From assembly GCA_945273835.1 (NCBI GenBank), contig CALYPL010000012.1, forward strand, positions 1 to 64,000: a DNA stretch of 64,000 nt, given 5' to 3'. The notes beneath the pieces were generated by a model. That model had not been told where the DNA came from and made no database searches. It was given only the letters and a program-made list of their open reading frames with translations. The stretch comes from an uncultured Dysgonomonas sp. (lineage in GTDB: Bacteria > Bacteroidota > Bacteroidia > Bacteroidales > Dysgonomonadaceae). The translations under genes and the position numbers were made by a program. Positions 1,767-63,379 of this stretch are shown here, piece after piece; the first letter of the stretch is position 1, and each line of letters begins with the position of its first letter.

Positions 1767-4055
1767 ATGAAATCTATACTAAAATCTTTAATTATTATTG
1801 GAATATTTTGCATATCCGGAAATATAGGAGGAAAAAATAAGGAACAAACTGACTCAATAAAAGCAAAACCGGCAGAAAGCGATCGCAATGTAATGCTGAA
1901 TGCTTCTAATGCCAACGGACCCCGCCAGATATCGATAGGACTTCCGAGCGAAGATGTGAGTGTATATGAAAATGGCTTGCCTGCAGTATATTCATCAGCC
2001 GTTCAAGGTCTATCTACTCATTGGCGCGCGGATGCCAGTCTGAAAAAAGTCGGACTAATGCAAATAAACGAAACCGCTATAGCTACCGGCAACATAGCAT
2101 ACGCAGTCAACTCTTTTTCCTGTATCGGGTCGGACAATTTTCAAGGAGTATTCAATTACAACACCAACCACTTCGGCTTGCAACGTTTCGACTTGGGTAC
2201 ATCAGGAGCTATCAACAAAGACTGGCTATATGCGGGAAGTATCTATCAGAATTTCGATCCCGGAAGTTTCAAGCTACGATTTACGGACTATTGGGACAGA
2301 ACACAAATCTATAAAGCAGCTGTTACCCGCAAATTGGGTACAAGAGGAACAATCACCCTGCAATATAAATATTCCAATTCACGCCGTTTAGAGCAAATCG
2401 TTGAGATGGCACCATTTATATATGTGGGAGACGGCAGTGTAAAAGAAGTTCCCGGATTTTCACTTGGAACAAGTTCATACACTCCCATCGAAGGACGTTT
2501 CCGAACATTGGATATGCGTAGTGGGAAAGTATCGGACGTAGGATTAAATGATGAATCACAAAACCATGGTAATGAACTGATGCTGAACTCTAATTACACA
2601 TTTGACAATGGACTTCAGTGGAAATTGAATGCTAAGATAATGAAATCATTTAACAGCTATGTATGGATAGGCGCGCCCTCTATTAATAAAGTTATTAATG
2701 GTATTGAAGAGGGTACAGAAAACAATCCGGATGCAAATATCTATTATATTAACGGGACAGAAGACAAGTTTACGGGCATGAAACAAAACCGAATTGCCAG
2801 TTTCCATTATGGCAACATAAAATCAGCAATGATAACTTCTGAATTGCTTCATACCATATCTGCACATAAATTAAGGCTGGGCATCAATCAATGGTATTAC
2901 AGCGCTTTATATTGGTCTAACACCATTCGTTTCGACCACGATGTCAAGGAATATCCAACTATGCTATCTCATTCTGAAAACTCGGCGCAGGTCAGCAATT
3001 ATGCCATGAATCATGGCGGTAATGAATATTATGACGGCAATGAAAATAAATTAGCACTTTACATGACGGATAACTGGGATTTATCCGAGAAACTGAATAT
3101 CTATTTGGGAACACGTGCCGAATATTATAGATATAGGGGAAAGAACCTGCCTTATGCCCGTTTTGACAATTTCCATATTGGTGCAACCATTCCTGAAAAA
3201 CAAATTATAGTAAAGCCAATTGATTTCAAAGGCGACTATTTCAACTATGCGCTGGCTGCAACAGTGACTTATCGCCTGACTGACAATCTTGGATTGACAG
3301 CCGACGGAACAATGGTGACACGACGCCCAAGACTCGAAGACTTTGCGACACCTGATTATCCATCTACAAAACAAACTCAAATCAAATTAGGACGTGCGGG
3401 AATCTTTTTCAACAATAATTGGGTTAACCTCACATCGCTTGTTTCCTATATTGGAAAGACTAATAACCGCACAGTGGTAAATATAAGCCACCCTACACCC
3501 GGCAACAGCGAAACCATGGCTTCGGCTTTCAACTACGACATTAAAACAATAGGATGGACTACCGACGCAGTCATTAAGCCTTTCACTAACTTCAATTTAC
3601 ATCTTTTGTTCACATATCAAAAACCTACATACAAAAAGTTTGAAACTACTGTGACTTTCTCTGATGGAATGAGCAAGCGTATTAATGCCACAGGAAATAA
3701 TGTGACAGAAATTCCTGAAATACTTATTGAAATTGACCCGAGTTATAACATAGCCAATAAAATAAATATCTGGACAAGTTTCCGCTATTTCAGCAAAACA
3801 TATGCCAATCTGAGCAATGCACTATATTTTAACGGACACTGGGAAACCTTTGGTGGTGTCAATTATAAAGTGAACGAATCTCTATCAATCGGTGCAACAG
3901 TCATCAATTTCCTAAATCAGACAGGAGCAACCGGAACCATTGCCGGATCAGAACTCATACAAAAAGATGAAGCCGAGCGATTTAAAAATACGTGGATGGC
4001 AGGAAAATATATCCGTCCATTTACCATGGAATTTTCAGCTTCAATAAAATTCTAA
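1767..4055 (+). CDS. TonB-dependent receptor-like outer membrane protein
   Basis: Signal peptide, plug-like segment (RQISIGLPSEDVSVYENGLPAVY), beta-barrel repeats, C-terminal FTMEFSASIKF. Confidence 0.75.
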   Translation: MKSILKSLIIIGIFCISGNIGGKNKEQTDSIKAKPAESDRNVMLNASNANGPRQISIGLPSEDVSVYENGLPAVYSSAVQGLSTHWRADASLKKVGLMQINETAIATGNIAYAVNSFSCIGSDNFQGVFNYNTNHFGLQRFDLGTSGAINKDWLYAGSIYQNFDPGSFKLRFTDYWDRTQIYKAAVTRKLGTRGTITLQYKYSNSRRLEQIVEMAPFIYVGDGSVKEVPGFSLGTSSYTPIEGRFRTLDMRSGKVSDVGLNDESQNHGNELMLNSNYTFDNGLQWKLNAKIMKSFNSYVWIGAPSINKVINGIEEGTENNPDANIYYINGTEDKFTGMKQNRIASFHYGNIKSAMITSELLHTISAHKLRLGINQWYYSALYWSNTIRFDHDVKEYPTMLSHSENSAQVSNYAMNHGGNEYYDGNENKLALYMTDNWDLSEKLNIYLGTRAEYYRYRGKNLPYARFDNFHIGATIPEKQIIVKPIDFKGDYFNYALAATVTYRLTDNLGLTADGTMVTRRPRLEDFATPDYPSTKQTQIKLGRAGIFFNNNWVNLTSLVSYIGKTNNRTVVNISHPTPGNSETMASAFNYDIKTIGWTTDAVIKPFTNFNLHLLFTYQKPTYKKFETTVTFSDGMSKRINATGNNVTEIPEILIEIDPSYNIANKINIWTSFRYFSKTYANLSNALYFNGHWETFGGVNYKVNESLSIGATVINFLNQTGATGTIAGSELIQKDEAERFKNTWMAGKYIRPFTMEFSASIKF

Positions 4056-59870: not shown

Positions 59871-60932
59871 TTACTTATTCAATACATCAATTTGTTGACG
59901 TACTGATTCTTCATGAATGGCTTCGAGTACGATACGCATAAATTCGCTATCCATCCCCATTTTAACTGCTTCGCCAATACGTTTTTGTAATATCTCATCA
60001 TAACGGTTTGTCTGAACCACTGCCATATTGTGCTCTTTCTTATAAGTTCCGATTTCTCTTGAAACACGCATGCGCTTAGCCAAAAGTTCGAGCAACTGAT
60101 CGTCAATTTCATCAATCTGATAGCGTAGTTGAGACAAATCTTCTGTTGTTTGTTTAAAATCTCGAATGATCAACGAATCCAGAATCTGCTTCAATCTGTC
60201 GGGTGTAACTTGTTGCGAAGCATCGCTCCATGCTGTGTCGGGATCACAATGAGTTTCAATAATCAAACCGTCATAATTCAAATCCATTGCACGCTGGCTT
60301 AGTGGTTCGATCAAATCCCGACGACCTCCGATATGGCTTGGATCGCAGATTATTGGTAGATCGGGGTAACGTCGTTTCAGCTCGATAGGTATATGCCACT
60401 GTGGAAGATTGCGATAGATTTTTTTGTCGTATGAACTGAACCCTCTATGGATAGCTCCTAATTTGGTAATCCCAACTTTGCTTAAACGCTCAAATGCGCC
60501 AATCCATAATTCGAGATCAGGATTCACAGGGTTTTTAATCAGCACGGGAATATCAACACCTTGTAAAGCCTCTGCTATCTCCTGAACTGCAAACGGGTTG
60601 GCAGTTGTGCGTGCGCCAATCCAAAGCATATCAATACCATATTTGAGTGCTTCATATACATGTTTCTGTGTAGCAACTTCAGTCGATACGTACATTCCGG
60701 TTTCTTGTCGTACTTTTTTAAGCCAAGCCAATCCTTCGCTACCAACTCCTTCAAAACCTCCGGGTTTTGTGCGGGGTTTCCATATTCCCGCGCGAAGAAT
60801 TTTTATACCGTTAGCCGCCAACTGACGTGCTGTTTTCATTACCTGTTCTTCTGTTTCAGCACTACAAGGTCCTGCAATAACCAAGGGTCTCTTAGCTTCT
60901 ACTCCGGGTAGTAAAATTGATTCTAATTTCAT
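59871..60932 (-). CDS. Bifunctional 3-deoxy-7-phosphoheptulonate synthase / chorismate mutase
   Basis: LVIAGPCSAETEEQVMKTA; RAGIWKPRTKPGGFEGVG; LPIICDPSHIGGRRDLI; LRYQIDEIDDQLLELLAKRMRVSREIG. Confidence 0.96.
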   Translation of the reverse strand: MKLESILLPGVEAKRPLVIAGPCSAETEEQVMKTARQLAANGIKILRAGIWKPRTKPGGFEGVGSEGLAWLKKVRQETGMYVSTEVATQKHVYEALKYGIDMLWIGARTTANPFAVQEIAEALQGVDIPVLIKNPVNPDLELWIGAFERLSKVGITKLGAIHRGFSSYDKKIYRNLPQWHIPIELKRRYPDLPIICDPSHIGGRRDLIEPLSQRAMDLNYDGLIIETHCDPDTAWSDASQQVTPDRLKQILDSLIIRDFKQTTEDLSQLRYQIDEIDDQLLELLAKRMRVSREIGTYKKEHNMAVVQTNRYDEILQKRIGEAVKMGMDSEFMRIVLEAIHEESVRQQIDVLNK

Positions 60933-61097: not shown

Positions 61098-62285
61098 CTA
61101 AATTACTTTCTTTATCCGTTCTTTTGCTTCCTGAAGCATCTCTTCATTACAGCAAAGAGAGATTCGGATATAACGTTCTCCGCGACTACCGAATATAGAT
61201 CCGGGGGTAATAAAGACGTGGGCATTATATAAAATATGATCAGCCAATTCTTCACTGCTTTTATATTTATCGGGAATTTTACCCCAGAAGAACATACCGA
61301 CCTGATTTTCGTCATACGAACATCCCAGCATGTCCATTATTTCTTTAGCATAGACACGTCTTCGGGCATATAAATCGATATTATTTTCACGGTGCCACAC
61401 GTTAGAATTGTTGAGAGCTGCAATGGCAGCGTCCTGCATAGGTTTGAGTATACCGCTTTCTACATTGGTCAGTACTTTCAATATCCATTCTATGAATTGA
61501 GCATTGGATACAATCATTCCTAATCGCCATCCGGGCATGTTATGCGATTTACTCATCGAATTGAGTTCGATACAAATATCTTTTGATCCCTCAATCTGTA
61601 AAATACTCAACGGATTTTCATTCAGTATCATACTGTAAGGATTATCATGCACGATGATGATACCATGCTTCTTACCAAAGTCAACAAGTTTCTGAAAAAG
61701 TTCAAGCGAACCATTTGCTCCGGTAGGCATATTGGGATAGTTAGTCCACATTAATTTGATGTTAGCCAAATCCATCTTTTCCAAAGCATCAAAATCGGGT
61801 TGCCAGCCGTTATTTTCATCCAAATCGTAGGTGTGAATATCTGCTCCTATTAATCGGCTCACGGATGTGTAAGTCGGATAACCGGGATTAGGGACCAAAA
61901 CTCCATCGCCGGGGTTAAGAAACGCCATAGATATAAACATAATGCCTTCTTTTGATCCGATCAAGGGTTGAATCTCTTTTTTAGGGTCAAGTTCAACACC
62001 ATACGTTTTTTTATAAAAGTTGGCAATAGCTTTTCGCAATTCAATAGTACCTACATGCGGTTGGTATCCGTGTGCTTTCTTATCGTTAGCCGATCGGCAT
62101 AACTCGTCAATTGTTTGCTGCGATGGTGGCATATCCGGACTGCCTATTCCCAGACTTATCACATTTTTTCCCTGAGCGTTCATCTCAGCAATCTCTTTCA
62201 ATTTGATCGAGAAATAATATTCACTTACTGTATTAAGTCTGTCAGCGGGAACTATTTGTTTCATAACTGTATTTTTATAATCCAT
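61098..62285 (-). CDS. Class I/II aminotransferase (pheA operon)
   Basis: ISLGIGSPDMPPSQQTI; NYPNMPTGANGSLELF; ELNSMSKSHNMPGWRLGM. Confidence 0.93.
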   Translation of the reverse strand: MDYKNTVMKQIVPADRLNTVSEYYFSIKLKEIAEMNAQGKNVISLGIGSPDMPPSQQTIDELCRSANDKKAHGYQPHVGTIELRKAIANFYKKTYGVELDPKKEIQPLIGSKEGIMFISMAFLNPGDGVLVPNPGYPTYTSVSRLIGADIHTYDLDENNGWQPDFDALEKMDLANIKLMWTNYPNMPTGANGSLELFQKLVDFGKKHGIIIVHDNPYSMILNENPLSILQIEGSKDICIELNSMSKSHNMPGWRLGMIVSNAQFIEWILKVLTNVESGILKPMQDAAIAALNNSNVWHRENNIDLYARRRVYAKEIMDMLGCSYDENQVGMFFWGKIPDKYKSSEELADHILYNAHVFITPGSIFGSRGERYIRISLCCNEEMLQEAKERIKKVI

Positions 62286-62311: not shown

Positions 62312-63154
62312 TTATTCTTCACTCTGTCGCCCTTCGGGGTATACTCCCAATATAAGCAGCTCGTTTGTCAGCGGACGTATTGCGTTTAGCGACTGACGAT
62401 ATCGGGTCAGGTCAGCAAATTTGAGATCGACATAAAACTGATATTCCCACTCTCGTCCCAATATAGGAAGCGATTGTATTTTTGTAAGATTTATATTGTA
62501 GAATGAAAATACCGACAGCACATGAGATAAACTACCCTCGGTATGTGCGGTTGTGAAAACGATGGAAGATTTATTCAAAACTTCGTTCTTCTGCATATCA
62601 TCTACAATCCACGGATTAGCGAAAATAAGAAAGCGAGTGAAATTGTGCTTATTTGTTTCAATTCCCCTCGCCAGTATTTCTAATCCGTAAATTTCGGCAG
62701 CTCTCTCACTGCAAATGGCAGCATGCCCCATCAACAGTTTGTCGGCAATATCACGAGCCGCCAAAGCCGTATCTTCGTGTTCTACTACTTTAACATCCTT
62801 CAGTTTATCTAAAAAATCGGTGCATTGCATCAATGCTATCGGATGAGATTGTACTTCTTTTATATCATCAATTGTTTGCCCCGGCATTGCTGCCAGACAA
62901 TGGGATATGCGTTGTTTGTACTCTCCGGCTATGGGTAATTTACAGTTTTTCAGTAAGTCGTAATTCGGAAGTAAGCTACCTGCAATTGTATTTTCGATAG
63001 CCATTATACCTATACAGTTGGGGTCTTTTTCTATAACATGAAAAATATCACGAAAGGTTACGCATGGGATTATCTCAACTTCCTCGTTAAAAAAGTTTTC
63101 CGCGGCAATACCATGATATGCACCTAAACCGCCCTGTATGGCAACCTTCTTCAT
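62312..63154 (-). CDS. pheA: Prephenate dehydratase
   Basis: VAIQGGLGAYHGIAAENFF; IMAIENTIAGSLLPNYDLL; NKHNFTRFLIF; GSLSHVLSVFSFYNINLTKIQSLP (ACT domain). Confidence 0.95.
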   Translation of the reverse strand: MKKVAIQGGLGAYHGIAAENFFNEEVEIIPCVTFRDIFHVIEKDPNCIGIMAIENTIAGSLLPNYDLLKNCKLPIAGEYKQRISHCLAAMPGQTIDDIKEVQSHPIALMQCTDFLDKLKDVKVVEHEDTALAARDIADKLLMGHAAICSERAAEIYGLEILARGIETNKHNFTRFLIFANPWIVDDMQKNEVLNKSSIVFTTAHTEGSLSHVLSVFSFYNINLTKIQSLPILGREWEYQFYVDLKFADLTRYRQSLNAIRPLTNELLILGVYPEGRQSEE

Positions 63155-63174: not shown

Positions 63175-63205
63175 AAAAAAAAATCCTGCCGTTTCAGCGG
63201 CAGGA
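63175..63205 (-). terminator. Attenuator terminator upstream of pheA
   Basis: Minus strand TCCTGCCG-CTGAAA-CGGCAGGA then nine T, about 20 nt before the pheA ATG. Confidence 0.92.
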
Positions 63206-63253
63206 CTTTTGTATATTTTTGTACTTAATTTTTTATTCTGAATACTCATACAT

Positions 63254-63263
63254 AAATCCTGCC
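63254..63263 (-). promoter_or_regulatory. Anti-terminator arm (GGCAGGATTT), duplicate of the terminator 3' arm
   Basis: Plus-strand AAATCCTGCC occurs at 63254..63263 and 63181..63190; the upstream copy begins one base after the leader-peptide stop. Confidence 0.85.
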
Positions 63264-63264
63264 T

Positions 63265-63321
63265 TTACCTTTTAAAAAAGTAAAAGAAAAAATAGAAATA
63301 TGTATAAGATAGACAATGCAT
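63265..63321 (-). CDS. Phe/Tyr-rich leader peptide MHCLSYTYFYFFFYFFKR
   Basis: ATG CAT TGT CTA TCT TAT ACA TAT TTC TAT TTT TTC TTT TAC TTT TTT AAA AGG TAA: 6 Phe + 4 Tyr in 18 codons. Too short for the ORF track. Confidence 0.88.
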   Translation of the reverse strand: MHCLSYTYFYFFFYFFKR

Positions 63322-63349
63322 TCTTCAATTCTTTTGTATGAACTTGTTA

Positions 63350-63379
63350 CAAAAGTAATTCTTTTTTTGAAAAAACAAA
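63350..63379 (-). promoter_or_regulatory. Bacteroidota housekeeping promoter for the phe leader: -33 TTTG, 18-nt spacer, -7 TACTTTTG
   Basis: Minus strand TTTG-TTTTTTCAAAAAAAGAAT-TACTTTTG, matching TTTG/TAnnTTTG; leader ATG lies 28 nt after the -7 box. Confidence 0.8.

Follow-up and report, generated by a model that had tools for sequence, protein, structure and literature searches.

The window analysed here, a stretch of 64,000 nucleotides from an uncultured Dysgonomonas sp., carries on its minus strand an operon for the synthesis of aromatic amino acids, and the question raised by this locus is what lies between the promoter and the first gene, pheA, and how it might govern transcription of the operon. 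A preliminary description had listed a promoter, a short reading frame rich in Phe and Tyr codons, and a terminator whose 5' arm could pair elsewhere. Direct reading of the minus strand found all of these elements in place, correct to the base; they are given below together with the genes of the operon and a further pair of segments.

63350 to 63379, minus strand: promoter of the Bacteroidota type, TTTG (63376-63379), an 18-nt spacer and TACTTTTG (63350-63357); from the sequence.
63265 to 63321, minus strand: leader ORF of 18 codons and a stop, MHCLSYTYFYFFFYFFKR-TAA; from the sequence, a Phe/Tyr-rich leader being conserved across the family.
63276 to 63305, minus strand: segment 1, within the leader ORF, with outer strand AUACAUA (63305-63299) and inner strand CUUUUACUUUU (63286-63276); from the fold and the alignment.
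63248 to 63273, minus strand: partner of segment 1 in the 1:2 hairpin, AAAAGGUAAAG (63273-63263) and UAUGUAU (63254-63248), flanking arm 2; from the fold and the alignment.
63254 to 63263, minus strand: arm 2, GGCAGGATTT, antiterminator partner of arm 3; from the comparison of helix 2:3.
63198 to 63210, minus strand: arm 3, AAAAGTCCTGCCG, common to antiterminator and terminator; from the comparisons of helices 3:4 and 2:3.
63175 to 63210, minus strand: intrinsic terminator, AAAAGTCCTGCCG-CTGAAA-CGGCAGGATTTTTTTTT, formed by arms 3:4 and T9; from the sequence and the comparison of helix 3:4.
63181 to 63190, minus strand: repeat of GGCAGGATTT within arm 4, the 3' strand of the terminator; from the sequence.
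62312 to 63154, minus strand: pheA, prephenate dehydratase (PF00800, E = 2.9e-53).
61098 to 62285, minus strand: class I/II aminotransferase of the operon (PF00155, E = 9e-63).
59871 to 60932, minus strand: DAHP synthase-chorismate mutase fusion (PF00793 and PF01817).

The promoter does have the form TTTG, 18-nt spacer, TAnnTTTG, and 10 of the 18 leader codons specify Phe or Tyr (6 Phe and 4 Tyr). GGCAGGATTT begins one base past the leader TAA, and the pheA ATG, at 63154, lies 20 nt past the terminator, both as first described. The terminator and the exact repeat in its 3' arm were likewise found as described, but the stem is longer than had been given, with 13 pairs if A-U and G-U are counted. 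This terminator (63210-63175) sits between the leader ORF and the first gene of the operon, and the leader is rich in codons for what the operon downstream produces; from its domain content, the pheA operon makes the amino acids that would be sensed. The gene next after that for the DAHP synthase-chorismate mutase is fumarylacetoacetate hydrolase-like. There is one copy of the attenuator in the window.

A second hairpin had been overlooked. In the predicted fold (z = -4.2) a hairpin that involves the leader coding sequence encloses arm 2, its pairings being AUACAUA/UAUGUAU and CUUUUACUUUU/AAAAGGUAAAG; since segment 2 can thus also pair with the coding sequence, the locus has the full set of 1:2, 2:3 and 3:4 helices. 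On the strength of the sequence comparisons and modelling described here, the element is very probably a ribosome-mediated transcription attenuator of the pheA - aminotransferase - DAHP synthase/chorismate mutase operon, responsive to charged tRNA-Phe and probably also to charged tRNA-Tyr. Transcription would start from the promoter listed above. With ample Phe and Tyr, the ribosome would reach the stop codon and cover arm 2, leaving arms 3:4 to form the terminator, at which transcription in the cell should end. If either amino acid were short, the ribosome would stall on the Phe/Tyr codons and cover segment 1; the free arm 2 could then capture arm 3 as it emerges, so that no terminator would form and pheA would be transcribed. 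Such a response to starvation would require transcription and translation to be coupled.

The effect of ribosome position upon the choice of helix was modelled on transcripts ending immediately past arm 3, with the ribosome represented by an unpaired footprint that extends 12 nt from the start of the A-site codon. In this treatment, which is one of equilibrium rather than kinetics and in which the footprint is assumed, the probability of the 2:3 helix, P(2:3), had a mean of 0.93 when a Phe or Tyr codon occupied the A site and exceeded 0.5 in every one of 814 cases from 87 sequences. With the ribosome at the stop codon P(2:3) was 0.00 in 76/76 stop codons examined. In the window, P(2:3) was 1.0 through F16, the last Phe, then fell to 0.71 at K17, 0.28 at R18 and 0 at the stop, so that the run of Phe and Tyr codons gives out right at the switch point. 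The logic originally proposed, in which a ribosome at the stop codon leads to termination and one stalled on Phe/Tyr codons to readthrough, is thus reproduced in silico across the 87 sequences, the choice of helix following the position of the ribosome. When no ribosome was present the antiterminator was favoured in 65% of sequences, including that of the window (P(2:3) = 1.0), and so an untranslated leader should read through there. For the same reason the 1:2 helix may, on this model, be of little importance in this species.

The preliminary description had proposed comparison with the pheA upstream regions of relatives, and this was carried out in the family, Dysgonomonas and its relatives. 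pheA is present in 88/101 family genomes, and the leader, arm 2 and terminator were found upstream of it in 88 of the 90 loci examined. The two exceptions are L050, which ends at a contig edge, and L074, which has a different upstream region. In the latter (genome G040) the sequence upstream of pheA is entirely different and the leader is lost, as if by rearrangement. The full TTTG-(17-21)-TAnnTTTG promoter motif was present upstream in 54/90 loci, compared to 0.9% of shuffles, and its -7 part alone in 88/90. Typical leader peptides of the family are MKNFSYTYFFFFYFYFKR and MNNSVFAFSFWFYFYFSR.

Helices were compared on an alignment of 87 family sequences, with shuffled and slid controls; sequences were placed by a TTTTAYTTT core, and 2 of the 90 loci were dropped for want of it. 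In helix 3:4, 99.2% of cells were paired and 54 were double-changed; in helix 2:3, 95.8% were paired, with 5 pairs changed on both sides; and in helix 1:2 the figures were 92.3% and 8. Paired cells and covariation scores were above both sets of controls for all three helices. Since arm 3 is the partner of arm 2 as well as of arm 4, any change must be matched in three places, and such matching is observed, for example where GGCAGGA with TCCTGCC is replaced by AACGGGA with TCCCGTC. The claim that arm 2 competes for the 5' arm of the terminator, making antiterminator and terminator mutually exclusive, is borne out by the fact that both helices are kept by compensatory changes.

The element extends well beyond the family. 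A covariance model for the Phe/Tyr leader, R1, matched at E <= 0.001 in 91 of the 294 genomes of the order that were searched; weaker matches include chance ones. A second R1 match in the genome of the window (G000:C36:6797-6906, 45 bits) proved to be a terminator after an unrelated gene, and for this reason R1 matches weaker than about 50 bits were accepted as leaders only after inspection. A test less open to bias began from PheA itself, which was found in 88 of the 198 genomes of the order searched for it, and 73 upstream regions entered the scoring. Of these 73, nearly half of which had first been fetched through R1 matches, 64 had one or more Phe/Tyr-rich ORFs with a terminator after them, compared to 0 of 730 shuffles; by this automatic rule the other 9 regions were without a leader. 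A lower estimate, in which all unscored genomes except three family members are taken to lack the element, is 67/88 (76%). In most Bacteroidales examined, including gut Bacteroides, pheA is thus preceded by a predicted leader attenuator.

Among the named taxa in which the element stands directly before pheA are Bacteroides fragilis, B. xylanisolvens, B. finegoldii, B. nordii and B. clarus, together with Phocaeicola, Paraprevotella xylaniphila, Tannerella, Muribaculaceae and Petrimonas and, outside the order, Niastella caeni and Segetibacter. The named genomes were scanned by a leader-like pattern, so that this list tells which taxa carry the element and not how frequent it is; 9 of the 77 scorable loci from the scan had no pheA nearby, and the majority of them resemble chance matches. 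When the whole phylum was searched, further families of the class also proved to have leaders ahead of pheA (L185, L187 and L188, for example). In a set of 119 leaders with 47 distinct arm pairs, the greater part of them taken from other families, 86% have arms 2 and 3 complementary at no fewer than 6.5 of 7 positions, compared to 2.9% in shuffles. Outside the phylum, a look-alike was seen in Deltaproteobacteria bacterium Smac51 (L194, around position 3550), where an ORF ending ...SFSDWLIANWFGFFYFYFRGRVA* followed by a terminator lies upstream of DAHP synthase, PheA and aminotransferase homologues; it could have arisen by transfer or by convergence.

In at least 12 of the 73 regions of the order, two leaders, each with its own terminator, were found before pheA by the automatic rule. 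Tandem leaders were seen at L101, L103, L107, L108, L116, L132, L133, L135, L138, L139, L145, L147, L152 and L154; at L101, L103, L116, L138, L139, L147 and L154, for example, the second Phe/Tyr-rich ORF, with its terminator, follows the first terminator and precedes pheA. With two attenuators in series, their effects on termination would multiply, and the response should be steeper.

Codon content and the make-up of the operon suggest that Tyr is sensed in addition to Phe, and it is on this point that the principal alternative turns. The attenuator could sense Phe only, or a general slowing of translation, with the Tyr codons kept for UAC pairing in segment 1 or by drift. The UUUUAC repeats of the leader do pair with GUAAA in the inner 1:2 helix, which would give UAC a structural role, and the leader of one genome of the order (G115) has a Phe-rich core with almost no Tyr. 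Furthermore, tyrA (prephenate dehydrogenase) is gone from this operon: it lies detached on another contig of the genome (L125:1493-2266), and no Phe/Tyr leader was seen in the DNA before it there. Against this, each of the 87 family leaders contains 2 to 5 Tyr codons (mean 3.2, compared to 6.1 for Phe), some of them outside the inner helix, and Tyr is retained in other families where the arms are different. In addition, tyrA lies in the operon region, no more than 5.2 kb downstream, in all 13 Bacteroidales loci with enough DNA. It is absent from the corresponding region in four Chitinophagales-type loci, and in one relative of the same family (L163) another gene separates it from the operon. 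Since tyrA is outside the operon here and inside it in most relatives, the Tyr codons of the window leader may be partly ancestral. An attenuator blind to Tyr is, on this evidence, possible but rather doubtful, and sensing of both amino acids is preferred. At L120, L122, L128, L150 and L157 the same kind of leader stands ahead of an aminotransferase or DAHP synthase/chorismate mutase gene instead of pheA; the attenuator would seem to stay with the operon when its first gene changes.

Alternatively, the leader peptide might have a function of its own as a small protein that acts in trans, as has been suggested for peTrpL, with the terminator a separate feature. Trans-acting leader peptides have been described (PMC7298713), and the peptide is very similar across genera, as in the ending ...KVEREFVCIK in Bacteroides. 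However, its tail is free to change and the stop codon shifts across arm 2 between species, the same sequence also encodes covarying RNA helices, and in the loci examined in detail the leader is always upstream of pheA or of a gene of the same operon. It is therefore very improbable that a small protein accounts for the element, while a role of the peptide in addition to attenuation is possible. The stop lies beyond arm 2 at L008, L012, L017, L031, L047, L084, L085 and L086 and at Bacteroides loci such as L209, where the peptide runs on over arm 2 (...KSKTGFCM at L017, and the Bacteroides ending above). There a ribosome would be expected to run on through arm 2 instead of halting before it, and the masking of arm 2 by a ribosome that has finished is less obvious than in the window.

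When the 246 nt preceding pheA were put through 20,000 dinucleotide shuffles, a comparably Phe/Tyr-rich ORF occurred in 14 and an ORF followed by exact arms and a T-run in 11, while the Phe/Tyr-rich ORF together with the exact arm arrangement occurred in none. Phe is readily encoded by T-rich DNA and small ORFs are common, but the idea that a T-rich stretch encoding Phe and Tyr lies by accident beside an unrelated terminator can hardly be entertained given these shuffles, the 0/730 at the level of the order, and the compensatory changes that maintain three mutually exclusive helices.

The attenuator reading can be widened: a single type of attenuator would read both amino acids, shortage of either opening an operon that makes both; as a control of the pheA operon it would be widespread, and perhaps ancestral, in Bacteroidales and beyond, duplicated in tandem in several lineages, and would imply working transcription-translation coupling in the phylum. 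The case for this wider proposal is evenly balanced. It concerns an RNA that, in every locus searched, falls below the thresholds of all families of Rfam release 15 and yet stands ahead of pheA in most Bacteroidales examined, Bacteroides fragilis included, and which would provide this order with a defined aromatic amino-acid sensor. Because the mechanism needs coupling, transcription-translation coupling in Bacteroidota would become directly testable. The mixed Phe/Tyr codons and tandem copies also offer natural material on how attenuators integrate two signals or sharpen a response.

In the enterobacterial pheL/pheA system a Phe-rich leader peptide precedes mutually exclusive antiterminator and terminator helices, with pheA downstream, and the window leader resembles it in anatomy and predicted working. 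The two differ in that Phe and Tyr codons are mixed here, whereas pheL of E. coli is Phe-rich and without Tyr, and in that the operon includes a gene for the DAHP synthase-chorismate mutase and, among relatives, tyrA as well. Against the Rfam family Phe_leader (RF01859) the window scores 30.8 bits, below the gathering threshold of 55, and so the leader is not a member of it. No family of Rfam release 15 reached threshold in any leader locus searched, relatives included; weak matches in the window (Thr_leader, PyrR, GibS, BTnc231 and others) were below threshold and non-specific.

The preliminary description knew of no characterised aromatic attenuator in this lineage, but two published cases show that the lineage is not empty. 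One is the Bacteroid-trp RNA (RF01692; Weinberg et al. 2010, PMC2864571), a cis-regulatory RNA of Bacteroidetes for an aromatic amino acid. With Trp codons and a different operon, it is a sister case to the Phe/Tyr leader. RF01692 (threshold 49 bits) was not matched in the window region at E values as high as 10, nor was it found in this genome, and it was above threshold in 13 of the 31 genomes of a sample of relatives. Trp-rich leaders (...NTYWWRYLQLTKS) at L158 and L160 were matched by R1 at about 50 bits, and that at L160 overlaps an RF01692 match (G102:C26).

The other case, the closest earlier report and one from the same phylum and for the same gene, comes from Flavobacterium psychrophilum, where a conserved structured 5' element without Rfam matches precedes pheA (Guerin et al. 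2021, PMC9723704). That transcriptome paper describes it as conserved in Flavobacteriaceae and offers leader-peptide clues for amino-acid operons generally; its main text gives no pheA sequence, peptide or helices, and the element is probably the same system. In the literature searched, no characterised Bacteroidota pheA attenuator was found beyond this report, and earlier predictions may exist in Vitreschak 2004 and Lopatovskaya 2010. Compared to the main text of the Flavobacterium report, the present work adds a wider distribution, the mixed Phe/Tyr codons, covariation and the tandem copies. A serial arrangement has a precedent in the Salmonella mgtCBR operon, described as preceded by two short ORFs and attenuation signals in series (PMC3641672); the operon and signals described there are different, whereas both copies of the Bacteroidales tandems are Phe/Tyr-rich. 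The less usual features of the element are its mixed Phe and Tyr codons, ahead of an operon for Phe and Tyr, and its tandem copies.
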